Assembly: GCA_038734275.1 (NCBI GenBank)
Contig: JAVYOO010000009.1
Span: forward strand, 1 to 64,000
DNA: 64,000 nucleotides
DNA from: Archaeoglobaceae archaeon
Lineage (GTDB): Archaea > Halobacteriota > Archaeoglobi > Archaeoglobales > Archaeoglobaceae
Direction: 5' to 3'
The position numbers and the translations under genes were made by a program. Shown here one piece after another: positions 51 through 59,833 of this stretch (position 1 is its first letter; each line of letters opens with the position of its first letter). Under the pieces are notes generated by a model. That model was not told where the DNA came from, made no database searches, and was given only the letters and a program-made list of their open reading frames with translations.

Positions 51-152
51 GGAGAGCTTGGCTTTGCTTTTAATCTCGATGACATCAGCGAATGGAGCAA
101 ACTTCTTCTCATCCTTAGGAGCTACATCCGAAGCAATTGCAACCTTTAACAT
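1..152 (-). CDS. N-terminus of a paralogue of the halocin C8-like precursor (runs off the window)
   Basis: An ATG at 152 on the minus strand opens 50 codons that continue past the left edge. A GGAG-type ribosome site (GGAGTTGAG) lies just upstream. The last 17 visible codons (EHYRILAEVLNEIRKQ) are identical, base for base, to the start of the halocin C8-like gene at 2932-3319. This copy carries about 33 extra residues at the N-terminus, beginning MLKVAIASDV, which are soluble and lysine-rich with no signal peptide. It follows the membrane-protein gene at 171-530 by 18 bases, the same position its paralogue holds in the other cassette. Whether it ends in the same cysteine-rich domain cannot be seen here; that is inference. 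Confidence 0.6.
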   Translation of the reverse strand, partial: MLKVAIASDVAPKDEKKFAPFADVIEIKSKAKLSEHYRILAEVLNEIRKQ

Positions 153-170
153 AATCTCAACTCCATTGTT

Positions 171-530
171 TCAATTTTTCACCTTTCTGTAAAAAATTGG
201 ACTTCTTGCAATTATAGCATAAATTATGGTCAATATAGCTGTATTCTCGAAGCAGAGTATGGTTAACGTTCCGTAAAGACGAATTAGTGGATCTGGATGC
301 TCTGAAATTTCCTTTGGAATGACTTGAATTGAAGATCCAGTGGTATGTATGGAGCCAAAATTTACAAGAAATAAAATGAAAAGTCCAAAGAAGGCTATCC
401 CAAAGCCTATGAGGACAAGGATAGGGAAATATCTGTATCGGACTTTTGAAATCCTTATGAAAACATAACTCGCTATTGTTGCTGGTATCAAAAAAACAAA
501 TAGAATTAAAAACACATCTTCGATCCTCAT
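171..530 (-). CDS. Small membrane protein of PLC/halocin-like cassette 1
   Basis: 119 residues with three to four hydrophobic stretches (about 7-27, 35-57 and 88-108), separated by a polar stretch near 60-85, ending in a basic tail. No family recognised. It starts one base after the phospholipase-like gene at 532-1671 and precedes the peptide-precursor paralogue at 1-152. It therefore occupies the position held by the 136-aa membrane protein (3321-3731) in the second cassette. Sequence likeness between the two is weak, so only the architecture is compared. A role in export of, or immunity to, the downstream peptide is a guess from position. Confidence 0.6.
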
Positions 531-531
531 T

Positions 532-1671
532 TTATCCCCTCAAATATTTAATCAATCCAAGAGAATATTTAGCCGTTTCGAGCAGACAGTTTTCTGTGAC
601 TTTCCTCAGGTTTTGGTCATTTTGCCATGTATTTGGGTTATTGTAGATGGTCCAGAATACTGTATCATCATATTGGTGGGAATAAGTTGCTAAGTCTTTG
701 GTTGCCTGTTCTGGGTTGCTGATTGGGTAATAATACCAATTGTTTTCGATTACTGATTTGAATCTATAACCACTTTCCCAGTTACTGGAAATATAATTTT
801 CATGGGAATAATGAATAGAGCTAAAAACCGCTTGCCAGCTCTCCAAACCTGTGTGCAAGGGATTTCCAACGTCCGTTATAAAGTGGCTTGCGTATCCCAA
901 ATTCTGGAAAGCTGAATACTTATCTCCACTCGAGTACTTGCTCTTAGCTACGTTTGCATAATACTTGCATTCGCTTGGAGCAGAGCCCGTTGCCCAATCC
1001 GGGTTGTAATAGTGCGTCCAAGAATGAACAACCTGCATTATGAAATTCCAATACCATTCAGGGTAACCTGGAGGGGGAGGAATTTGAGTCCAGTAGTCCG
1101 GATCGTCTGCATGGTCTCTAGTTATACCGCAGTAATAATCGCTCTCTCCCCACTTCTTGCAGGAGATAAAAGCAACGCTTTGATGTGTGTCTACATTCCA
1201 CAATATTCCTATTTCGTATTTTGAACTGAAATACTCATTTACAGCCATAGCTACTCTCTCGAGCATTATTTTATCCTCTTCTGTAAGCAAAATTTCATTT
1301 CCGGATTCAATTGTTACTAAGGTTGATTTCTTGTCTCTAATCGTCTTCACGGGATACTTCTTCCAAAGTTCTTGCAAAAATCTTTTCAACTCCTCTTTTT
1401 CATAATCTTTTAGACTTTTACTGGTATCTATATATTTAAAGGTTGTCAATCTTCCCTTTTCTTCACTTCCAACAGCTATTATTATCCAATATGGTGTCAA
1501 ATTCTCAAGATTTGGGTCGATTTTTATAATTTCTATGTCTTTATGTAATTCAGATTTCTCTTTTGCAGGAATTGGCTTATTTTCTGCAATTTTAGTCGCA
1601 ATCACTGGTGTTGTTGTGCTGCCAACCATAACTAAAACCAGAAACAGACTTATTATTTTCTTGGCTGTCAT
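532..1671 (-). CDS. Secreted zinc-dependent phospholipase C-like protein with long propeptide
   Basis: 379 residues. Residues 1-25 form a signal peptide ([17 protein letters not shown]). The C-terminal half shows the zinc-ligand pattern of the bacterial zinc-dependent phospholipase C / S1-P1 nuclease superfamily: H216, H263-x3-D267-x5-H273 and H287-x3-E291. In that family the free amino group of an N-terminal Trp binds zinc. Here the matching W-x4-H motif (W158, H163) lies deep inside the protein, so residues of about 26-157 would be a propeptide that must be cut off before the enzyme can work (inference). It begins the operon that continues with the 119-aa membrane protein and the peptide precursor. 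Its promoter and signal peptide are near-copies of those of the gene at 5991-7018. Confidence 0.8.
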
Positions 1672-1697
1672 GCTCTCACTAAGCTATGTTGTGTGCT

Positions 1698-1790
1698 ACT
1701 AATATATAAGTATTTCGCTACTTGCTGACATATATGTAAAAAGAGGTTTTTGATTTGGAATAAAATTCTTTAAATTGGTAACACTTTTTA
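1698..1790 (-). promoter_or_regulatory. Promoter/operator of cassette 1 (copy of 7045-7136)
   Basis: On the minus strand a TATA element (CTTATATATTAG) lies at about 1700-1711, 30-40 bases before the ATG at 1671. Upstream of it, 1717-1790 matches 7062-7136 with only a couple of differences. The shared block contains the perfect 10-bp palindrome acatatatgt (1728-1737). Such preservation of non-coding DNA in front of two paralogous genes suggests a shared regulator. Confidence 0.6.
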
Positions 1791-1875
1791 AGCTTAAAAA
1801 TACAAAGATTATATTCCGAGCTAAAAATGCTGAATTCTGCGCTTATGGGATCAAAAATTGAGTTGAATCCAAAAA

Positions 1876-1886
1876 GTTAATAAAAT
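1876..1886 (+). promoter_or_regulatory. TATA box of the toxin-antitoxin pair
   Basis: The sequence gttaataaaat is centred about 25 bases before the ATG at 1906, which predicts a leaderless transcript. Confidence 0.4.
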
Positions 1887-1905
1887 CCAGTTCCATAAGT
1901 GAAAT

Positions 1906-2091
1906 ATGCAAACAACGCTTGAAGAGCTCAGCGAGCAAATGAAGAGAATTGAGAGCTATCTAAAGGCTCTGATCGAAGTAAACCTTGAGTTGATCGAAGA
2001 AGTTGAGCCTGAAGCATGGGAAGTTGAAGATCTTGAAGAAAGAAGTAGAGACGAGTTCATTGAGTGGCGTTTGATTAAGAATGAGTTATGA
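1906..2091 (+). CDS. Antitoxin of a RelE-type pair
   Basis: 61 residues, strongly acidic and predicted helical (LEELSEQMKRIESYLKALIE). It lies directly upstream of a RelE/ParE-type toxin and overlaps it by 11 bases, the usual antitoxin-first order. The shape matches the short archaeal RelB-like antitoxins in which one long helix and an acidic tail wrap the toxin. No DNA-binding domain is obvious. The family assignment rests mainly on context. The pair sits in opposite orientation between the two minus-strand PLC/halocin-like cassettes. Confidence 0.7.
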   Translation: MQTTLEELSEQMKRIESYLKALIEVNLELIEEVEPEAWEVEDLEERSRDEFIEWRLIKNEL

Positions 2092-2347
2092 AAATCAAAT
2101 TTTAATAGCCAGAAAAGCTCTAAAGGAACTTAAAGATATTCCAGAAAAGGATCGAGATCTCATAAAAGATAGAATCTCAAAGCTCGCATTCTTTCCGCTT
2201 GTTCGCCTCGATGTGAAGAAGCTTAAAGGCTTTGAGAAGACTTACAGGCTAAGAGTTGGCGATTACAGAGTGATCTTTGAATTTGAGAAAGATGAGAAGG
2301 TAATAAAGATACTCAAAATCGGTAAAAGAAGCGAAATTTATGGGTAA
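2081..2347 (+). CDS. RelE/ParE family toxin
   Basis: 88 residues, full length for the RelE superfamily of mRNA interferase or gyrase-inhibiting toxins. Visible hallmarks are the N-terminal helix pair with ARKALKELKDIPEKDR, the strand LKGFEKTYRLRVGDYRVIF and the C-terminal KILKIGKRSEIYG, which contains the basic residues usual in the active cleft. The ATG overlaps the antitoxin stop, so the two are translationally coupled. No frame damage is visible. Which target it attacks (ribosome-bound mRNA or gyrase) cannot be read from sequence. Confidence 0.85.
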   Translation: MSYENQILIARKALKELKDIPEKDRDLIKDRISKLAFFPLVRLDVKKLKGFEKTYRLRVGDYRVIFEFEKDEKVIKILKIGKRSEIYG

Positions 2348-2472
2348 AGGCTAAAAATATGCCAATAGAAATTATAGATGACAGATAATACCCCCAAGTC
2401 AGCAAAAGCAAGCCACGAGTCCAGCAAAGACTTCCGAATGTCTGATTATTCGTCTTAATGTTACAATTCAAA

Positions 2473-2658
2473 CTAAAGCTCATACTCGTGACCAAAGATT
2501 CTCTTATGAAGAAGAAACAGAACTCCAAGAACTATAGCGATCAAAGCCAAAGACATTCCAAAGAGGTCTCTCTGGATTAACTTTAAAATCAGATAAATCG
2601 AAGAGAAGAAAATTAAAAGATACGCATAACTTTTCATGCCAAGTTTTTTCATATCCAT
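2473..2658 (-). CDS. 61-aa membrane peptide at the end of cassette 2
   Basis: 61 residues with two hydrophobic segments (about 10-27 and 34-50), a basic loop and an acidic C-terminus. No family recognised. It is about 100 bases downstream of the 55-aa membrane peptide gene on the same strand, with no other gene between, so it may close the cassette-2 operon. A second accessory or immunity peptide is possible. It could also be a chance open frame, since no paralogue is visible in the window. Confidence 0.4.
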   Translation of the reverse strand: MDMKKLGMKSYAYLLIFFSSIYLILKLIQRDLFGMSLALIAIVLGVLFLLHKRIFGHEYEL

Positions 2659-2754
2659 CCCATGTATTTCGCGCAGTTATAGCAGCTATAAACATGAGAA
2701 GCCAGCAAGATAACTTCCCTCCACTCTTTAGCCTCATTCAAAAGTTGCTATTTA

Positions 2755-2922
2755 CTATTTTTTCCTCAACCTGCTGTAGACACCAAAGACTGCTGAAATG
2801 CCAAGAGCTACTGCAAAACTTCGAAGTATCTCGAGTAATTCCAGATGACCATCGAGGTAGCTCAGAGTTAAGCCTAAAGAAAAAGCTGCAATAAAAAATA
2901 CGAGAACGTATTTTCCATTCAT
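2755..2922 (-). CDS. 55-aa membrane peptide directly after the halocin C8-like gene; immunity candidate
   Basis: Opens at ATG 2922 and ends at TAG 2755. It encodes 55 residues: a hydrophobic segment (YVLVFFIAAFSLGLTL, about 5-20), a short acidic turn, a second segment (RSFAVALGISAVFGVY, about 34-49) and a basic end RLRKK. A ribosome site GAGGTGAT precedes the ATG and overlaps the stop codon of the cysteine-rich peptide gene (corrected frame), so the two are tightly coupled. Genes in this position after an antimicrobial peptide commonly encode self-protection. That function is inferred from position only. Halocin C8 itself is reported to carry its immunity function within its precursor. Confidence 0.6.
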   Translation of the reverse strand: MNGKYVLVFFIAAFSLGLTLSYLDGHLELLEILRSFAVALGISAVFGVYSRLRKK

Positions 2923-2931
2923 ACGATCACC

Positions 2932-3319
2932 TCAGCAGTATCCCGCATAAATACAAAGTTGATTTGCTCCAGGATTGCATCCGTATTCTCCAATTACCCA
3001 GCAAACAGCAGACGCAATTGCAGCACAAGCTATACCACCAATCACTGTAGTAACTCCTGCAAGAACACAAAGAACTGCGATACCAACTCCCACACCCTAC
3101 AGCACAAGCAATACTTACAAGAGCCTTACATGCCCAGCAATATTCCCCCGTGTCTGCGATAATCCCACTCCCTTTCCCCTCAACATTAAACTCAGCCAAA
3201 TTTCTCTCAACTACTCTGCTCAAATAGCTCAGCTCAAGCTTAGCCTTATTCCAAATCCAAGTCTCATCTTGCTTTCTTATCTCATTCAGCACTTCAGCAA
3301 GAATTCTGTAGTGCTCCAA
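2932..3319 (-). CDS. Halocin C8-like cysteine-rich peptide precursor (one-base frameshift)
   Basis: TTG start at 3319 after a GGGAGG site, one base past the preceding stop. An ATG at 3343 is possible but overlaps that gene. The N-terminal part of about 60 residues is a charged helix region. Next comes CWACKALVSIACAVGC in frame. A single extra G in the GGG at 3089-3091 then throws the frame. Removing it gives a hydrophobic tail ending IYAGYC and TGA at 2932, 128 aa in all. The corrected domain has ten Cys spaced CxxC-7-C-3-C-7-C-13-C-7-C-7-C-7-C-5-C. As I recall halocin C8, this equals it except for 8 residues instead of 7 in two loops. Halocin C8 is a secreted archaeal peptide antibiotic cut from a longer precursor. 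No signal peptide is visible. The fit says the corrected frame is, or was, the functional one. Confidence 0.75.
3267..3316. repeat. 50-bp exact direct repeat, copy B
   Basis: Identical to 1-50. It lies at the 5' end of the halocin C8-like gene and encodes EHYRILAEVLNEIRKQ. Confidence 0.9.
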
Positions 3320-3320
3320 T

Positions 3321-3731
3321 TCAATCCTCCCAGTACTTCTCAAAAATCAATAAAATCAAGTAAAAGCTCATCGCCACTAATGCAACTAAGATGCAAAAGT
3401 AGTGCACTGGCGAATAGCTAATCAACTGTAAAATGCTTTCAGGATAAAAGCTGTAGGCTTTGGCAGATAAAAAGGCAATCGTTGCAAATGAAAGGCTAAG
3501 AACAGCGGTTAACAGCACAGCCTTATTTCTATGCTTTAGTTTTGATATTATCGGGAAAGGGACGAGAATTGAAAGAAGGGCAGGTATCAAGACTGCAAAG
3601 ATGAACTGAAGAATTAAAAGAACTATTGCAATCCAGTGGGCTAACGAGATTTGCAAAAGGGAAAGAAATGGAAGAGTTATCCAAAGGAAGAGAATTAAAA
3701 ACCAGATTTTAGGCTTCTCTAAACTACTCAC
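3321..3731 (-). CDS. Multi-spanning membrane protein of cassette 2
   Basis: 136 residues with about four hydrophobic segments (roughly 9-28, 32-57, 69-91 and 107-129). GTG start at 3731 behind a clear GAGGTGAG site that overlaps the end of the upstream gene. No family recognised. It ends one base before the TTG start of the halocin C8-like gene, so the two are coupled. This is the same place the 119-aa membrane protein holds in cassette 1. Export partner or immunity protein are both reasonable guesses; nothing in the sequence decides. Confidence 0.65.
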   Translation of the reverse strand: MSSLEKPKIWFLILFLWITLPFLSLLQISLAHWIAIVLLILQFIFAVLIPALLSILVPFPIISKLKHRNKAVLLTAVLSLSFATIAFLSAKAYSFYPESILQLISYSPVHYFCILVALVAMSFYLILLIFEKYWED

Positions 3732-3740
3732 GATCTCACC

Positions 3741-4295
3741 TCAGCATAATGGCTTTGCTTCAACAATGTTCCAGCCTTCTTTGAGCGTTACATTATCCAG
3801 ACAAATCTGAATCCTGCTAAATCCGCCAAATGCCAATCCTTGCGAAACAAATGAAGTTGCAAAGAGCTTCATCTTCACAGAACTGTTGCTGTAAACTCTC
3901 AATTTTTTGTCACCCTCGAAAGTGCTCAGCTGTATAAGATCTATTGATGAAAGAAGGGGTGCATGATAGCTGTAGTTACTTTTTATAGCTACATGATATC
4001 TTCCAACTACCTTCAGAACCATTCCAAATTCGGATTCAGTTATCTCAACAAAGCAGTTAACACATTCAACGTTTAGATTGTTCATAACTTCGTGCATTCT
4101 TGAATCTTTATCCTTAACGACTGGAATTAAAGCCAGAAAGTCGCCATTGGAAAAGATCTCAACAGAGTATTCGATGCAGTTCATTTGAGCGTTGTTGAAT
4201 AAATCCAATGCCATGTAAAAATAGCAGAAGAGGGCAGAACAAATTATAGCTATTGCAAGGGCTTTCCGCAGAACTTTCATCGCCATGAGCTTCAC
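3741..4295 (-). CDS. Single-pass anchored extracytoplasmic protein paired with a PLC-like protein
   Basis: 184 residues. An N-terminal hydrophobic anchor (about 11-31, ALAIAIICSALFCYFYMALD) is followed by a beta-rich outer domain with two close Cys (VECVNCFVEI) and several N-x-S/T sites. It overlaps by four bases the end of the second PLC-like gene. The gene at 5367-5987 has the same layout and also follows a PLC-like gene, so these look like PLC-plus-anchored-partner pairs. No known domain recognised. Possible roles are a chaperone, inhibitor or surface tether for the phospholipase. Confidence 0.6.
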   Translation of the reverse strand: MKLMAMKVLRKALAIAIICSALFCYFYMALDLFNNAQMNCIEYSVEIFSNGDFLALIPVVKDKDSRMHEVMNNLNVECVNCFVEITESEFGMVLKVVGRYHVAIKSNYSYHAPLLSSIDLIQLSTFEGDKKLRVYSNSSVKMKLFATSFVSQGLAFGGFSRIQICLDNVTLKEGWNIVEAKPLC

Positions 4296-5324
4296 TTCAT
4301 TCTATTAACCTTTTCGAGTTTCTCGTTTAATTTCTTTATGAAAACCTTTCCCAACTCTTCATAGCTCAAATTGCTCTCCAAACGCAAGATGTAAGCCCCA
4401 GATGCATCGTAGTGTCTTTGAAGAGTTAAGAATCCTTCCTCGATTAGTTCCTCTCCTACAGCCTTTTTCAGCGAAATTCCCAAATGTTCTCTATGATACT
4501 TTTCGACTAATTTTTCGTTTGTCTCTAAGGTCTGAATCGAAGTCTTGATAGGACAGAAGCCGACTATATAAGCATAAGATGCGTTGATTGCAGCTTGCCA
4601 CCAGTCGATGTAATCGCCAAAGGTCCTCTTAGCGTATGCGTAAGTGCCAAGGTTGAAAGTTGCTTGTTCTGCAACTATTGAAGCAGCTAATTTATCAAAT
4701 TCTGAAACAATTTCGCTTTCTGAAGGTATTGGAAAGTTCCCACCATATCTGCTTCTGTATTCTTGAAACACTGATTTTATAAATGAAGGATAGACTTTAA
4801 ATTCCCATGGCCAAGGAGCGCTTCCACCTTTTTCATAATAGGCTAAGCAGTCTACCATATACTCAGCAGTTATGTGAGCATTCAAATTATATGGATCGAT
4901 CCTCTTGTATTCTAAATAGAATTTGCCATTCGGATACGGTAGATTTAAAAAGCTCGGTTTTCCACCATGAATGTAGTAATCAGAGATAGCATGGCTTACC
5001 CAACCAGCTAAATAAGCTCTTTGTTGGTCGTTTGAAGATTTCAATTTTGCTGTTTCATAGAAATTCCAGAAATAATTTCCATCATGAACAATTACAAAAA
5101 GAGAGGTCTCTCCAGTTTTCTGGACAGCCTTTGTAAAGACTCCAATTCCCCACCTGAACGTTTGCGCAGAAGAATACATCAGGCACAATCGCCCCGTTTA
5201 TATAATCTAAATTGTACGTATAGATATAACTCGGTAAACCGCTCCTATCGTCCAAGTTCTTTACGATGCCGTAATGCGTAGCTCCTCCCCAAGCCATCGC
5301 TGGCGTCGCTAAACTGCCGATCAA
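4292..5324 (-). pseudogene. Zinc-dependent phospholipase C-like gene, frameshifted (second PLC-like copy)
   Basis: A TTG at 5324 behind GGTGAG opens a short leader ending AMA then WGGATHYG, the mature Trp and first His of the zinc phospholipase C family. The frame then breaks near 5165-5173 (TTCTTC). Removing one base joins GAIVPDVFF to AQTFRWGIGVF and a long intact remainder. That part holds GWVSHAISDYYIH (H-x3-D-x3-H) and HITAE (H-x3-E), the expected metal ligands. The signal peptide is unusually short and lacks the hydrophobic core of its two paralogues, so besides the indel the N-terminus may be damaged. It reads as a broken or mis-sequenced secreted lipase, second in the operon after 5367-5987. 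Confidence 0.7.
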
Positions 5325-5366
5325 GCTCTCACCAGTCAAACATAAACACGGGTTGGGATATTAATA

Positions 5367-5990: not shown

Positions 5991-7018
5991 TCATCCCTTC
6001 TCGATTTCCGAATTCTGGAATTTTAAAATTTCGGCAGCTTTTCCGCTCAAATTCATATTTCTCAACATCTCTCTGGCGACTATATCTGCCTTAGATTTGT
6101 CAAAAGATTTAAACTCGATTAATAACCATCCTTTTTCGATTTTTCTGCTAATTTCCAAAGCTTCTGATTCTTCCAAATTCTTGGCATATTCTCTCATCCA
6201 TCCTTTCCAAATATTTGCAATCTCATTTTCGGCCGAATTTTCAAGGAGTATTGAAGGTCTCGAGACTTGAGGATTGTTTGTAAGATAGATCGACGTATAA
6301 TATGGATTGCAGTTTACTTCTTGCACGTAATCGTCGTAATCTCCGACGGTTCCAGCCATGAAAAGGGAGATGTACAACGCTTTACCCGTTGGAGTTTGCC
6401 AAAAAGCAAGTTCACCATAATATTCTGCCGCAAAAGTGTTATAGGCATCAATTAGCCTATCTCTTGGTGGAGACTGACCGTATAGAGTATTCATCGTCTT
6501 AATAACCAAATCTATCGGAACTGCGAAGGTAACAAAGTCCCAGTTCCATCCTTTTTCGTTGAGAACTCTACCGTTAACAAAGAATTCTGCAGAAATGTGG
6601 TCTATTCCGTATTTTTAGCAGCAAAGTTTGAGTATCCTACTCCGAATGCTGGGTCTCTTGGTAATCCTAGTCCATTACCATGAGCTACCCTGTCTTGCAT
6701 GAGATGTGCGAGCCAGCCTTTGGCAAATGCTCTTTCTTTACTGTTTTGAGAAAGAACGAATAAAGTGTTACCTATGCGGAGTGCCTCGCTTACATTGTAG
6801 CCATGGAATTTTGAACCCCACTCATTTGAAATCAAATAGCCACCATCTGGTGCAATGGAACCAGAGAGATACTCCATTTTCCGTCCAGGATACGGATTTC
6901 CCGCTTCAGAAGACATTCTGATGTGTGTTAATGTTCCCCAAGCCATTGCTGAACTTATTGCGAACTTAAATGCAACTAAAACCAGAAACAGGCTTATTAT
7001 TTTCTTAGCTATTGTCAT
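5991..7018 (-). pseudogene. Zinc-dependent phospholipase C-like gene, frameshifted (third PLC-like copy)
   Basis: ATG at 7018, preferred over an upstream GTG because GGTGAG lies just before it. It opens a signal peptide nearly identical to that at 532-1671 ([14 protein letters not shown]), ending AMA before WGTLTHIRMS. Cleavage there would leave the N-terminal Trp that ligates zinc in this family. GWLAHLMQDRVAH supplies H-x3-D-x3-H. In an A5 run at 6613-6617 the frame stops (AAKNTE then stop). Adding one A restores KKYGIDHISAEFF, which brings back the essential H-x3-E, and continues unbroken to 5991. The gene heads cassette 2. Because the rest is intact, an indel error in the homopolymer is as likely as decay. 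Confidence 0.7.
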
Positions 7019-7044
7019 GCTCTCACCAGTCAAAGATGAGCACA

Positions 7045-7136
7045 AGAAGTATATAAGTTTTGCTACTTGCTGACATATATGTAAAAGGAGGTTTTTGATT
7101 TTGGAATAAAATTCTTTAAATTGGTAACACTTTTTA
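7045..7136 (-). promoter_or_regulatory. Promoter/operator of cassette 2 (copy of 1698-1790)
   Basis: A TATA element (CTTATATACTT on the minus strand, about 7050-7060) lies some 30-40 bases before the ATG at 7018. The upstream block 7062-7136 repeats 1717-1790 almost exactly, including the palindrome acatatatgt (7073-7082). Confidence 0.6.
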
Positions 7137-43810: not shown

Positions 43811-44533
43811 TTCGGGCTTTTGTCCTCTTCGTCTTCATTTTCCTGTATGTTCCAATAATATGTGGTGGCCTCATCCTTTATCGACGAGAACGGAATCACG
43901 ACAAAGTGGTTTCTAAAGTTGTTTGAAGATAGGGCGATAGTGAATGCCTTTTACAACAGTCTTTTTTTGGCAATTCTTTCCACGTTTTTTTCTGTAATTC
44001 TTGGCACTTTAGCAGCTTACGCCTTCATTAGAACCAATATGAAATTTGAGTCTCTTTTCTACGCACCAATAGTCATCCCCGAAATTACCGAAGCTCTTTC
44101 ACTGCTCATGTTTTACAAGCTTATTTCTTTTCCTCTTGGATTTTACTCAGTTCTGATAGGCCACATAGCATTTAATGTGTCATTTGTATATGTAATTGTC
44201 AAGGCTAGACTTTCGGCCCAGTTAAAATCGATTGAGGAGGCTTCACTAACCCTTGGAGCAAATGAAATCCAGACTTTCTTTAAAGTAACAGTCCCACTCG
44301 CCATGCCAGGAATAGTTGCAGGCTCGCTCATAGCCTTCACACTTTCATGGGATAATTTCGTAAAGACAGTCTTCACTACTGGCCCAGGATTCCAGACTTT
44401 ACCACTCATCATCTGGTCTCAAGCTGCGAGAGGTGTTGTTAGTCCAACTTTGAACGCCTTAACGACTTTAATGCTAATAACATCCTTTGTTCTCGCTTAT
44501 CTCTACGCCAGAATCTCTCTGAAGAGAGAGTAA
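43807..44533 (+). pseudogene. potC: Polyamine ABC transporter permease PotC, one-base frameshift
   Basis: ATG 43807 (overlapping the potB stop) encodes MIRAFVLFVFIFLYVPII, the usual PotC first helix, and then loses frame. An extra T at about 43861 must be removed to give VVASSFIDENG, which runs to 44533. The remainder has EASLTLGANEIQTFFKVTVPLAMPGI, the EAA loop, and SLSWDNFVKT-type helix. A translation start at 43862 alone would lack the first helix. Since potA, B and D are intact the break is probably a sequencing error; a true loss would disable the system. Confidence 0.8.
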
Positions 44534-44564
44534 AGTTTTTATTCCAAGATTTTCAACCAAAATC

Positions 44565-45644
44565 ATGGTTGACAGGAGCAGAAGAGATTTTCTTAAAATT
44601 GCTGTTGCTGGAATTGCAACAATGGCTTTAGGCAGTTTAGCTGGGTGTTTGACGCGTAGAGAAGAACTTGTAATATGCAACTGGTCATACTACATTAACG
44701 AAACTTTACTCGACGTATTTTCAAGTCACATCGGGGTTCCCAGAGATGCAATTATCTACGAAGAATACGAGGATCCAAATTACATCTTAACCAAGCTTGA
44801 GGCGGGTGTGAGTGGTTATGATGTCATAATTTTGCCAGACTACTGCGTTGACATAGCTAGAAAGAAAAATCTGCTTTTAGAACTCGACAAAAAACTAATA
44901 CCAAATTCAAGATACCTTGATGAAAAGTTTCTGAATTTACCATATGACCCAGAAGGCAAATTCAGCATTGTCTACATGTGGGGTTCCACGGGCTTTGCCT
45001 GGAGAAGTGGTATTGAAGATGTTACCACACTTGAACAGATCTTCAATCCCGAGTATGGATTCCTACCGAAGTATAGAAAAAAGATAACCATGCTTGAGGA
45101 GGCAACTGAAGTTATCTGCTCCTGTAAGGCTTATCTGGGTAAAAAGATGGATGACTGGAGCGATGAAACACTCGAAGAAGTGAAGGATGTTCTGATCAAA
45201 CAGAAACCCTACCTTGCAAGTTATGCTGGAGCCAATATTTACTATGAAGGCCTGAAGAGAGGTGCTATCTATGTCGCACAAGCCTACAACGGAGATATAG
45301 CAAGGCTGAGGGAGGAGTTTAGTGAAGTTTATTTTGGAGTGCCAGAAGAAGGTGGCACCATATGGACGGATAACTTCTGCATTCCAAAAGACGCAAAGAA
45401 TGTAAAAGCCGCACACGAATTCATAAACTTTATGCTCGATCCAGAGATTGCAGCAGCCAATTCCAAGTTAATAAGATATGCAAATCCAGTAAAGGCCTCC
45501 TGGGACCTCTTAGGTGAACTTCTCGAAGATCCGATTGTTTATCCGCCCGAAGAAGTTCAGAAGAAAATGTGGCTGATGCCCTCGCTCAGCGAAGAAGAGA
45601 GACGAAAAATTGAGAGGTTAATGCTCGAAGTGAAAGCTCTTTAA
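44565..45644 (+). CDS. potD: Polyamine-binding lipoprotein PotD
   Basis: 359 residues. The N-terminal signal has a twin-arginine-like start (DRSRRDFLKIAVAGIATM) and a lipobox before Cys 27 (GSLAGC). The mature protein is the type II periplasmic binding fold: ICNWSYYINETLLDVFSS, YDVIILPDYCVDIARKK, YMWGSTGFAWRS and DNFCIPKDAKNVKAA, as in PotD/PotF. It captures polyamine outside the cell and hands it to PotBC. The gene is 31 bases after potC. Confidence 0.9.
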   Translation: MVDRSRRDFLKIAVAGIATMALGSLAGCLTRREELVICNWSYYINETLLDVFSSHIGVPRDAIIYEEYEDPNYILTKLEAGVSGYDVIILPDYCVDIARKKNLLLELDKKLIPNSRYLDEKFLNLPYDPEGKFSIVYMWGSTGFAWRSGIEDVTTLEQIFNPEYGFLPKYRKKITMLEEATEVICSCKAYLGKKMDDWSDETLEEVKDVLIKQKPYLASYAGANIYYEGLKRGAIYVAQAYNGDIARLREEFSEVYFGVPEEGGTIWTDNFCIPKDAKNVKAAHEFINFMLDPEIAAANSKLIRYANPVKASWDLLGELLEDPIVYPPEEVQKKMWLMPSLSEEERRKIERLMLEVKAL

Positions 45645-46051
45645 GTTTTAAAATCTTTTATAATTTTTATAATTTGAAAAGCAAATTAGAGGCGTTTAAG
45701 TCACTCAAAGGGATCCTAAATGCCATAAATAGAGGAGCAAACAGGCGTAGGAAAAATACTACCTCGTCGTGCTTTTTAAAGATAAGCCGTGGAGTTAAAG
45801 TCTTTCCAGCTTAGTAAAATTGGGAAATAAATTGCCTGTGATTTGTCTTTTTCTCACCCAAATTATTTCTTCTCGGAAAAGATAACCAATTTCTGCATTT
45901 AGCAGGATGTTCTGCTTTCTTTTTGCTGAAAAGCAACCATTTAATGGATACATTTAACTGGTGGCTTTTCGAATAGAGTAGAATCGTGCTTGTCCACAGA
46001 TGCTAAACCCAAAACTTCGAGTTTTTTATATACAAAAATATTAATAAATAG
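45645..46051. other. 407-base gap, largely featureless
   Basis: A T-rich stretch after potD (45644-45673, runs of T) may end transcription. A plus-strand frame from TTG 45674 to TAG 45814 would encode 46 basic residues (MKSKLEAFKSLKGILNAI onward) but has no ribosome site and no homologue I recognise. The rest is A/T-rich with no RNA gene that I can fold by eye. Confidence 0.35.
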
Positions 46052-46465
46052 TTACTCTATTTTACCCTTAAACAAAACCCCGAGCTTTTCAAGAATTGTT
46101 TTTGCCCTACTTATGTCATCGACTCTGAAAATTATCAAAGCCTTGTGCTTTTCTGACGTAAAGGCATAAACGTAATCTATGTTTATTCCCTCATCCCCAA
46201 GAGCCTTAGAAATTCTGTAAAGTTCTCCAGGTTTATCCTCAACCTCCACAGCCAGAACTTCGTTAAGAGTGACTGTGAATCCGGCCGATTTAAGTGCATT
46301 GTATGCTTCCTCGGTTTTATCGACTACCATCCTGATAATTCCAAAGTCTCCCGCATCTGCTATCATGAATGCCCTTAAATTTACCCCCCTCCTGAATAAA
46401 ACCTCCGTTACCGACGCAAGTCTTCCGGGCTTGTTCTCCACAAAAACAGAAAGCTGTTTAATCAT
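46052..46465 (-). CDS. ACT domain regulatory protein paired with PaaK
   Basis: About 137 residues from ATG 46465 behind GAGGTGG; the longer frame would begin inside paaK. It is two ACT repeats in tandem: IKQLSVFVENKPGRLASVTEVL (1-65) and NEVLAVEVEDKPGELYRISKALG (70-135). ACT pairs bind amino acids and control enzymes. Genes of this type regularly follow phenylacetate-CoA ligase in archaea and anaerobic bacteria, suggesting feedback by aromatic or branched amino acids. The ATG overlaps the last codons of paaK. Confidence 0.88.
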   Translation of the reverse strand: MIKQLSVFVENKPGRLASVTEVLFRRGVNLRAFMIADAGDFGIIRMVVDKTEEAYNALKSAGFTVTLNEVLAVEVEDKPGELYRISKALGDEGINIDYVYAFTSEKHKALIIFRVDDISRAKTILEKLGVLFKGKIE

Positions 46466-46475
46466 AAAAACCACC

Positions 46476-47777
46476 TCAGATCTTTCTTTTATCAATAACT
46501 CTCTTGGCTTTTCCTTCAAATCTCTGAAGAGTGCCGGGGTTCACAAGTTCAACCTTTGCAGAGATACCGAGAACAACTCTAAGCCTTTCCTCAACTTTCT
46601 TTGTAAGGTTAAGAATATCTGCGGGCTTGTCTATGGCAACTTTGTCGCTTAACTCCACTTGCACAGTCATCACATCGAGATTTTCCTCTCGATCGAGAAT
46701 TATCATGTAGTGATCCCCGAGCTCAGGAATCTGCATGAGAACGTGCTCTATCTGGCTTGGGAACACGTTAACTCCGCGAACTATTAGCATGTCGTCGCTT
46801 CTCCCAAGAATTCTCATGATTCTCGGGTGAGTTCTTCCGCAGTTGCATTTCTCAGTTTCAAGGATCGTTATGTCTCCAGTTCTCCATCTTATCAAGGGCA
46901 TGGCTTCTTTGCTAAGCGTTGTGACAACGAGTTCCCCTTTCTCACCCTCGCCTACCTGCTCGCCACTCTCGGGATCTATCACTTCAATTAGGAAATGATC
47001 TGCCCATACATGGAGCCCGTTTCTTTCAATGCATTCAGTGAATAGCGGACCGCTAAGCTCAGAAGTTCCATAGACGTCATAGGCAACAATTCCTGTCTTA
47101 TCTTCTATTCTTTTTCTCGTTTCCTCGCTCCACGGCTCAGCTCCGAATATTCCCATTCTCAGCTTTGTCTCTCTAAGGCTTGTGTTCATCTTTTTTTCTG
47201 CAAATTCGGTCATGTAGAGCATGTATGATGGTGTGCATGCAATTACCGTGACTCCGAGATCTTTCATCAGGTTGATTTGTCTCTCAGTATTCCCTGCCGA
47301 CACGGGTAAGGCTGTGGCTCCTATTTTCTCAGCAGCATAGTGAAAACCTAACCCACCTGTGAAAAGTCCGTAGCCATATGCAATCTGCATTATATCCTCA
47401 TTTGTAACTCCGCAACTTATAAGACCTCTACAAAGACTCTCAACCCAGACCCTTATGTCATCCTCGGTATATCCGACCAAGGTAGGTTTTCCGGTGGTGC
47501 CACTCGATGCATGGAATCTAACGATCTGCGATAAGGGCACTGCAAACATTCCGAATGGGTAATTGTCCCTCAAATCCTGCTTCTTTGTAAAAGGTAACTT
47601 TTTGAGGTCTTTAAGGCTCTGAATATCGGTTGGGTGAATTCCAAGCTCCCTAAATCTCCGCTTGTAGAATGGGGAGTATTCGTAAGCATTTCTAACAAGA
47701 TTTTTCAACTTCTTCTCCTGTATTCTCTCCAGCTCCTTTACGGGCAGCCTTTCTATCGTCGGACTCCAGAACATCAT
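46476..47777 (-). CDS. paaK: Phenylacetate-CoA ligase (copy 2)
   Basis: 433 residues. AMP-binding loop HASSGTTGKPTLVGYT, then YDVYGTSELSGPL, RWRTGDIT and the C-terminal EGKAKRVIDKR lysine motif. About half the residues match copy 1 at 28696-30003 by eye (for example GRSDDMLIVRG-VNVFPSQIEHVLMQIPE), so they are old paralogues rather than a recent duplicate. This copy is followed by the ACT protein and preceded by the 88-aa gene, in one operon with fibrillarin and Nop5. Confidence 0.93.
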   Translation of the reverse strand: MMFWSPTIERLPVKELERIQEKKLKNLVRNAYEYSPFYKRRFRELGIHPTDIQSLKDLKKLPFTKKQDLRDNYPFGMFAVPLSQIVRFHASSGTTGKPTLVGYTEDDIRVWVESLCRGLISCGVTNEDIMQIAYGYGLFTGGLGFHYAAEKIGATALPVSAGNTERQINLMKDLGVTVIACTPSYMLYMTEFAEKKMNTSLRETKLRMGIFGAEPWSEETRKRIEDKTGIVAYDVYGTSELSGPLFTECIERNGLHVWADHFLIEVIDPESGEQVGEGEKGELVVTTLSKEAMPLIRWRTGDITILETEKCNCGRTHPRIMRILGRSDDMLIVRGVNVFPSQIEHVLMQIPELGDHYMIILDREENLDVMTVQVELSDKVAIDKPADILNLTKKVEERLRVVLGISAKVELVNPGTLQRFEGKAKRVIDKRKI

Positions 47778-48040
47778 TCCACCTCTTTAATTTCAACCTC
47801 TACGTAGTCCCCAACCCTTAGTTCTCGTGCAAGGTATTCTTCATACTCCATGGTTATAAAAGCATCGAAGCCCAGCAGTTCTTCAAACTTCTTCACGAGA
47901 TTCATCCCCATCTGAAGACTAAACTCGAGTAGTTGAGCCGGATTGCCCGGAGCAACCGGGACCATCTCAGACTTCTCCTTTTTCATAAAAACAAGCACTT
48001 CATCATCTTTTAACTCAATCTTTACAATTTTGAACCTCAC
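47774..48040 (-). CDS. Small conserved-looking protein between fibrillarin and PaaK
   Basis: 88 residues. Beta-rich start (FKIVKIELKDDEVLVFMKK), a helix (QMGMNLVKKFEELLGF), then LARELRVGDYVEVEIKEVE. No family recognised. It overlaps fibrillarin by four bases upstream and paaK by four bases downstream, so it is certainly translated with them. An RNA- or enzyme-binding accessory protein is possible. Confidence 0.6.
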   Translation of the reverse strand: MRFKIVKIELKDDEVLVFMKKEKSEMVPVAPGNPAQLLEFSLQMGMNLVKKFEELLGFDAFITMEYEEYLARELRVGDYVEVEIKEVE

Positions 48041-58649: not shown

Positions 58650-59833
58650 TCAAATCACACCTTTTCTCTCGAAATTCCTGATCTCGTCTTCGCTATATCC
58701 AAGAGAAGACAGTATTTCGATATTGTGTTTTCCCAACTCTGGAGCAGGCTTAACTGAGCCGGGTGATTCTGAAAGTTTCACACAAACTCCAGGTATCTGG
58801 AATTTCATGCCCTTATACTCCACCTCAACAAGCATCCCCCTTGCCTTCAGCTGTTCATCATTTCTGAGTTCTGAAACATCGTAAATTGGTCCACATGGAA
58901 CTTTTGCATTAGCAAGTAGTCGAACAATTTCGTCTCTTTTCATTTTTGAAGTCCAGTTACTAACGACTTTATTTAGTTCCTCATCATTTTCAAATCTTGA
59001 GATAAAAGTAGAGAATTTACCCTCGCTGACAAGCTCCTCCATCCCCATTGCCCTAAACAATCTTTTTGCCTGTGCATCTGTTAAAGCACATATCGCAACT
59101 TCCCCATCTTGGGCTGGATAAATGCCATAGAGAGGCAATTTTATCCCGGGAGGGTATTTCGTGATACTTAAACCTATTTCTTTCGCTTTTTCTCCTAATG
59201 CAGTCTCTACAATACCGGCCAAGTTGATCGAGAAAACGACGTCCTGCATTGAGACGTCAACTAACTGCCCCATTCCAGTTTTCTCGCGCCAATAAAGAGC
59301 GAACATCGCCCCAAGTGCGGCATAAACGCCGGAAACTATGTCGCCAATGAACATCTTTGGTTTATTCCCGACTCTCTCAACAAGCTTGGCTGTTCCCCCC
59401 GCACCCTGTGCTATTAGATCAAAAGCAGTTCTTTCTCTATAGGGCCAGTTCTACCAAATCCCGATATGCTGACATAAATTAGTCTTGGATTCAGTTCTCT
59501 CAGCTTCTCATAACCGAGTCCAAATTCATTCATAGTCCCTGGGCCGAGATTCTCCACCAATATGTCAGATTTTGAAGCAAGCCTTTTGAAAATTTCCACA
59601 CCCTCTTTATCTCTGAGATTTAAGGTTAAACTCTTTTTGTTTTTGTTCAAAGCACAAAAAAGGGCTTCAAGTTCTGGATGAATAAGTGAAGTCCAAACTC
59701 TTAAAGTGTCTCCAATTTTGGGTTCCACCTTGATTACTTCAGCACCCATCTCTGCCAAAAGGGTTGCACAAAGGGGCCCTGAGATGAATTGAGAGGTGTC
59801 TATAACTCTCACACCTTCCAGCGGAGCTGACAT
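58650..59833 (-). pseudogene. Family III CoA-transferase (CaiB/BaiF), one-base frameshift
   Basis: ATG 59833 starts MSAPLEGVRVIDTSQFISGP, with AEMGAEVIKVEP and the catalytic-region KSDILVENLGPGTMNEFGLGY. At about 59430 GGCCCTATAGAGAAAGAACTG ends the frame soon after GFGRTGPIE. One more A gives RTAFDLIAQGAGG, the conserved continuation, and the rest (58650-59354: GDIVSGVYAALGAMFALY, YPAQDGEVAICAL, YSEDEIRNFERKGVI) is intact. The enzyme moves CoA between organic acids, perhaps for aromatic or fatty acids as with the two ligases here. Intact length about 394 residues. Decay or sequencing error cannot be separated. Confidence 0.85.

Follow-up and report, generated by a model that had tools for sequence, protein, structure and literature searches.

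Does the split reading frame on the minus strand at positions 3343-2927 encode a halocin, and if not, what does it represent? The window, i.e. the whole stretch of DNA analysed here, comprises the first 64,000 bases of contig C9 (79,779 bases) in an Archaeoglobaceae genome of 1.73 Mb and 12 contigs (G000, the host genome). The reading frame specifies a halocin C8-type peptide, which is split by a one-base step near 3091-3089, where a GGG was located by three-frame translation beside the in-frame homologue L023:5287-5910. Frame a, read from 3343 or 3319, aligns with residues 80-156 of this homologue (BLOSUM62 score 254), and frame b, entered just past the GGG and ending at the stop codon 2934-2932, aligns with residues 153-207 (score 216). 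Since both frames align with adjacent parts of the homologue, they represent one protein with a one-base step.

The halocin C8-like core occupies positions 2932-3155 of the minus strand, and its ten cysteines are distributed over the two frames, as seen from TIGR04449 and from the alignment of both halves to L023. The initial annotation had proposed that dropping one G restores the cysteine spacing of halocin C8, and this is borne out: across the step the gaps are 2-7-3-7-13-7-7-7-5, identical to those of L012 and L023, and all ten cysteines are obtained only when both frames are read together. The gaps that it gave for halocin C8, 2-7-3-7-13-7-8-8-5, are exactly those of L013, a TIGR04449 match from another family of the same phylum, and two gaps of the window core are one residue shorter. 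It had also judged agreement on both sides of the step very unlikely to arise by chance and suggested comparison with the TIGR04449 domain (halocin_C8_dom; cut-off 24 bits). The downstream half alone (2935-3096) scores 43.4 bits over model positions 15-69 of 69, with an E-value of 1.1e-10 for the whole genome, and chance is therefore excluded for the core. No C8-like core was found by tblastn against a plasmid collection.

Upstream of the core, the copy is truncated. A leader stub at 3152-3319 (minus strand) matches positions 146-201 of the leader profile A2, which has 201 positions and was built from five related precursors, with an E-value of 2.2e-26. The stub thus retains the last 56 of the 201 leader positions; approximately 145 positions are absent at the 5' end and it carries no signal peptide. 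One further leader codon is absent, the window copy reading DET-WIW where other copies read DETSWIW. The start would be a TTG one base past the stop of the upstream gene, or a TTG within that gene; since the former is a plausible start with GGGAGG before it, translation of the stub is possible. Directly upstream on the same strand lie a membrane protein gene (3321-3731) and, in the same gene run, a gene for an exported-looking protein of 184 aa (3741-4295), both taken from the list of open reading frames and both without a family match. No single open frame leads from an export signal to the core, given that the signal peptide is absent and the core frame is stepped. The gene had been described as probably intact in the organism or only recently broken. 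The core does read as recently broken, but an intact gene finds no support, because the copy lacks its signal peptide and most of its propeptide independently of the GGG. An intact gene with one sequencing error was therefore rejected as a full account of this headless copy, even if the extra base by itself may be an error.

The host genome contains the leader DNA four more times, namely on contigs C7, C10 and C1 and at the beginning of C9. Different cores or remnants follow the five leader copies, and a complete standard gene is not among them. The copy at the start of C9 (1-152, minus strand) is cut by the contig start, beginning within the leader and ending at the contig end; its bases 1-127 are identical to the C7 copy, which looks like an assembly-graph overlap of 127-base words. 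On C1 only a leader fragment is found. In the C7 copy the leader is interrupted by an insertion, and the core that follows, core Y, is related to the core of G004 and contains an in-frame TAA. The C10 copy combines a leader with a 12-cysteine core, core X; its signal region has a replaced start and no in-frame ATG, GTG or TTG before it. Since the damage differs from copy to copy (nonsense codon, insertion, truncation), one kind of sequencing artefact would not explain all of them. In G009, G050 and G053, too, contigs end within a leader. Because contigs break inside the leader, single junctions, including the mosaic of C7, C10 and G009 described below, could be assembly chimeras. The insertion found in the C7 leader recurs in that of G009 C9 (L020:4754-5597 and L056:3996-4954) and codes for the end of another exported protein as well as for a small membrane protein. 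No accepted family was obtained for the leader from Pfam, NCBIfam or PADLOC. An AlphaFold model of the related precursor L080 had a mean pLDDT of 60, with no PDB match at E <= 0.001, and no conclusion on the leader fold is drawn.

Among the 59 genomes of the class, leader matches were obtained in ten, restricted to two genera. In a comparison of nine copies, the leaders are 66-90% identical (48-60% for one divergent subtype), and the cores are 71-90% identical within a type and 22-40% identical between types. The leaders of the host genome are alike at the DNA level up to GAGGGGAAAGG and are followed by unrelated sequence; in the DNA alignment, leader identity stops at the leader-core boundary. 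A junction of this kind is seen on contig C9 of G009, where the leader and upstream insertion are those of G000 C7, and core X and the downstream genes are those of G000 C10. Core X thus stands behind a C7-type leader in G009 and behind the C10 leader in the host genome, in which the C7 leader precedes core Y. This mosaic, as read from the assemblies, may reflect exchange of cores at the boundary, recombination of the chromosome at that point, or an assembly chimera. Intact full-length genes are present in L023, G050 and G053 C34, and damaged copies also in G009, G002, G013 and G024. In the L023 array, a full-length precursor and then a membrane protein are followed by a headless C8-like copy, whose core is in frame, and lastly by a small membrane protein. 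In G053 C6 the core is broken in the opposite direction to the window core and at a different place.

Each intact core is followed, within approximately 50 bases, by the gene of a multi-segment membrane protein of its own type. The C8-type cores are followed by proteins of 55-59 aa, core X by one of 54 aa, and core Y of G004 by one of 93 aa; the protein measures 155 aa in G003, 259 aa behind the full-length gene of L023, and approximately 340-350 aa behind the cores in G053 C34, G024 and G050. In the window, the corresponding gene (2755-2922, minus strand) is intact and encodes a protein of 55 aa with two segments predicted by hydropathy; GAGGTGATC lies upstream of its start. Copies of this gene are found in G009 on C5 and on C9, in the latter without a core. 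By their position, this gene and the other core-adjacent membrane protein genes are candidate immunity genes. For those of their products that were compared with Pfam, NCBIfam and PADLOC, no accepted family was obtained. A second small membrane protein, of 61 aa and also with two segments predicted by hydropathy, is encoded at 2473-2658 on the same strand. In G002 C12, DNA 72% identical to this gene follows a leader pseudogene; the window gene is possibly an orphan immunity gene of a lost core. Between the two genes, a short stretch at 2675-2711 (minus strand) matches sequence that follows core X in G000 C10 and G009 C9 (91-92% over 34-37 bases by blastn), and it may be a remnant of another module.

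Several other features were seen around these genes. Within the island, positions 1906-2347 of the plus strand hold a small two-gene pair, the second member of which matches ParE_toxin (PF05016, E 7.6e-12). A promoter and signal-peptide start region (1598-1811 and 6974-7136) is common to several exported genes of the host genome and G009 at approximately 80-87% DNA identity, and it forms a second shared module besides the leader. Near the coreless membrane gene of G009, L072:7245-7664 encodes a protein of 139 aa that is cysteine-rich at its end; the genes behind it resemble those of a membrane protein and of an ABC transporter ATPase, and the group may be a further system for an exported peptide.

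Window positions 117-3009 share 98.4% identity with G009 C5, and G009 C9 matches the C7 island at 96% and the C10 island at 95%, whereas the housekeeping stretch at 44000-48000 is just 67-68% identical to G009. Recent transfer of the island between species would be the simplest account of these identities. In G009 C5 the identity to the window stops within the core, and the residual end carries an indel of its own, different from that of the window; this sister MAG therefore keeps only a damaged core remnant. The initial annotation had named inactivating changes in related strains as evidence against its reading, and this is partly what is found, G009 being without most of the core. No second assembly across the GGG was found, since G009, the sole close relative here, is without that part of the core.

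The extra G may be an assembly or sequencing error; the organism would then possess an in-frame core, albeit again in a headless module. The sequence on both sides of the step is well conserved, the closest MAGs have a coverage of only about 4.0 (G004) and 5.4 (G009), and at least one other frame break is seen elsewhere in the window, all of which favour an error. However, 41 of the 44 window genes compared with G004 are unbroken, and the other three comprise one antisense ORF, one partial match and one apparent frame break near 43,860, against three broken genes among about 12 in the first 7 kb (3343/2927, 5339/4292 and 7045/5991). This clustering (Fisher p 0.03-0.06, depending on the background count) suggests real decay of the island, without proving the extra G, and the sister locus in G009 is damaged as well, by its own indel. 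We regard an error at this base as possible, though less likely than not. A programmed frameshift that joins both halves in translation, which had been thought conceivable, is highly improbable: it is favoured by the step itself and the conserved halves and by nothing more, the L023 homologue needs no frameshift, and the relatives are broken differently, in G053 C6 in the opposite direction and in the G009 remnant by a different indel. As to the other breaks, the genes at 4292-5339 and 5991-7045, on the same strand, look frame-broken, and the latter is related to an exported zinc-dependent phospholipase C-like protein of L023 (PF00882 in L023). Two adjacent ORFs at 58650-59833 appear, by inspection, to be one CoA-transferase-type gene that is split.

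A decaying island is also what would be expected if the whole set were plain pseudogene debris, left by a duplicated halocin-like family that is being lost, with no continuing role and no switching. All five leader copies of the host genome are incomplete, G009, G002, G013 and G024 hold damaged copies too, and the broken genes of the window gather in its first 7 kb. This explanation is nevertheless rather unlikely, since the headless C8 copy of L023 retains an in-frame core and a small membrane gene, L023, G050 and G053 C34 possess intact full-length genes, the small membrane gene of the window is intact and also copied elsewhere, and the core changes sharply at one boundary. In the reading that we favour, with a probability of about 0.62, the window copy belongs to a polymorphic system of halocin-like secreted peptides and is one of its orphan modules, now inactivated. 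This reading is supported by the same order of elements in the L023 array, by constant leaders with variable cores and headless fragments before an intact small gene, by the candidate immunity gene that stands without a core in G009 C9, by the contrast in identity to G009 between the island (95-98%) and the housekeeping stretch, and by the same pattern in orphan cdiA-CT/cdiI modules (PMC3150448). It is weakened in that most copies in the genus are damaged, so that the set could be plain debris, and in that the window stub may be translated from its TTG behind GGGAGG.

The scheme behind the orphan-module reading would be as follows. A variable cysteine-rich C-terminal core would leave the cell behind a signal peptide of Sec type and a conserved leader of approximately 200 residues. 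Cleavage near the conserved boundary between leader and core would free the core, which would act on competing microbes, and the membrane protein encoded immediately downstream would protect the producer. With leader DNA in common, cores could be swapped by recombination near the boundary, and headless fragments consisting of a core and an immunity gene would remain. The window copy would be one such fragment: it retains the stub of a leader, its C8-like core is out of frame, and its candidate immunity gene is still intact. In its assembled form, the locus would make no halocin, and its likeliest remaining use would be immunity against the C8-like halocins of neighbours.

By analogy, these loci suggest that these archaea may exchange antimicrobial cores by recombination, much as bacteria exchange polymorphic toxins. 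A more tentative extension, which we consider possible but doubtful, is that Archaeoglobales maintain a reservoir of interchangeable cores and matching immunity genes, that the expressed core is switched at the leader, and that modules pass between species. The orphan-module reading would account for the existence of a halocin gene that is headless and broken and yet well preserved in its core. If it is true, thermophilic relatives outside the halophiles use exchangeable leader-plus-core halocin-like peptides with separate membrane immunity genes, and the loci offer a natural set of cores for testing halocin targets and producer protection. The reservoir, if true, would be an archaeal peptide counterpart of the bacterial orphan toxin modules. 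Leader-core loci of this kind may have been noticed before, which makes their novelty uncertain; the survey by Makarova et al. 2019 (mBio) is said to be the main one of archaeal antimicrobial peptides and polymorphic toxins.

The nearest known system is halocin C8 of halophiles, in which toxin and immunity reside in one protein: ProC8, comprising HalI and HalC8, is exported by the Tat pathway and contains the immunity protein HalI in the same precursor (PMC11509114). The window system shares with it the TIGR04449 cysteine-rich C-terminal core, with ten cysteines at nearly the same spacing, and a longer precursor. In contrast to ProC8, the related precursors appear Sec-like by inspection, and a separate membrane gene lies behind each core; the window copy, being headless and frame-broken, is not a working halocin gene. 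Between the leader profile and the N-terminal part of L013, a precursor with C8 spacing, hhalign detected no similarity (E 0.76).

Among bacterial systems, orphan cdiA-CT/cdiI modules consist of headless C-terminal fragments with varying upstream homology and a small gene with its own start, and, as here, unrelated C-termini stand behind alike upstream sequence (PMC3150448). The system of the window differs in being archaeal, with peptide-sized cysteine-rich cores and putative toxin and immunity functions, and neither a CdiA/CdiB-like protein nor a VENN motif was seen in it. The orphan immunity gene arrays of Vibrio type VI secretion systems resemble it in retaining small immunity-like genes after loss of the effector, although no type VI secretion is involved here and immunity is proposed from gene position (PMC5361080). 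The VARTIG modules of Thermococcales encode Ig-domain proteins of unknown function without a halocin-like core. Like the loci described here, they are archaeal, and they join constant upstream parts to hypervariable C-terminal parts with matching membrane proteins; their authors likewise compare them with polymorphic toxin systems (PMC8416519).
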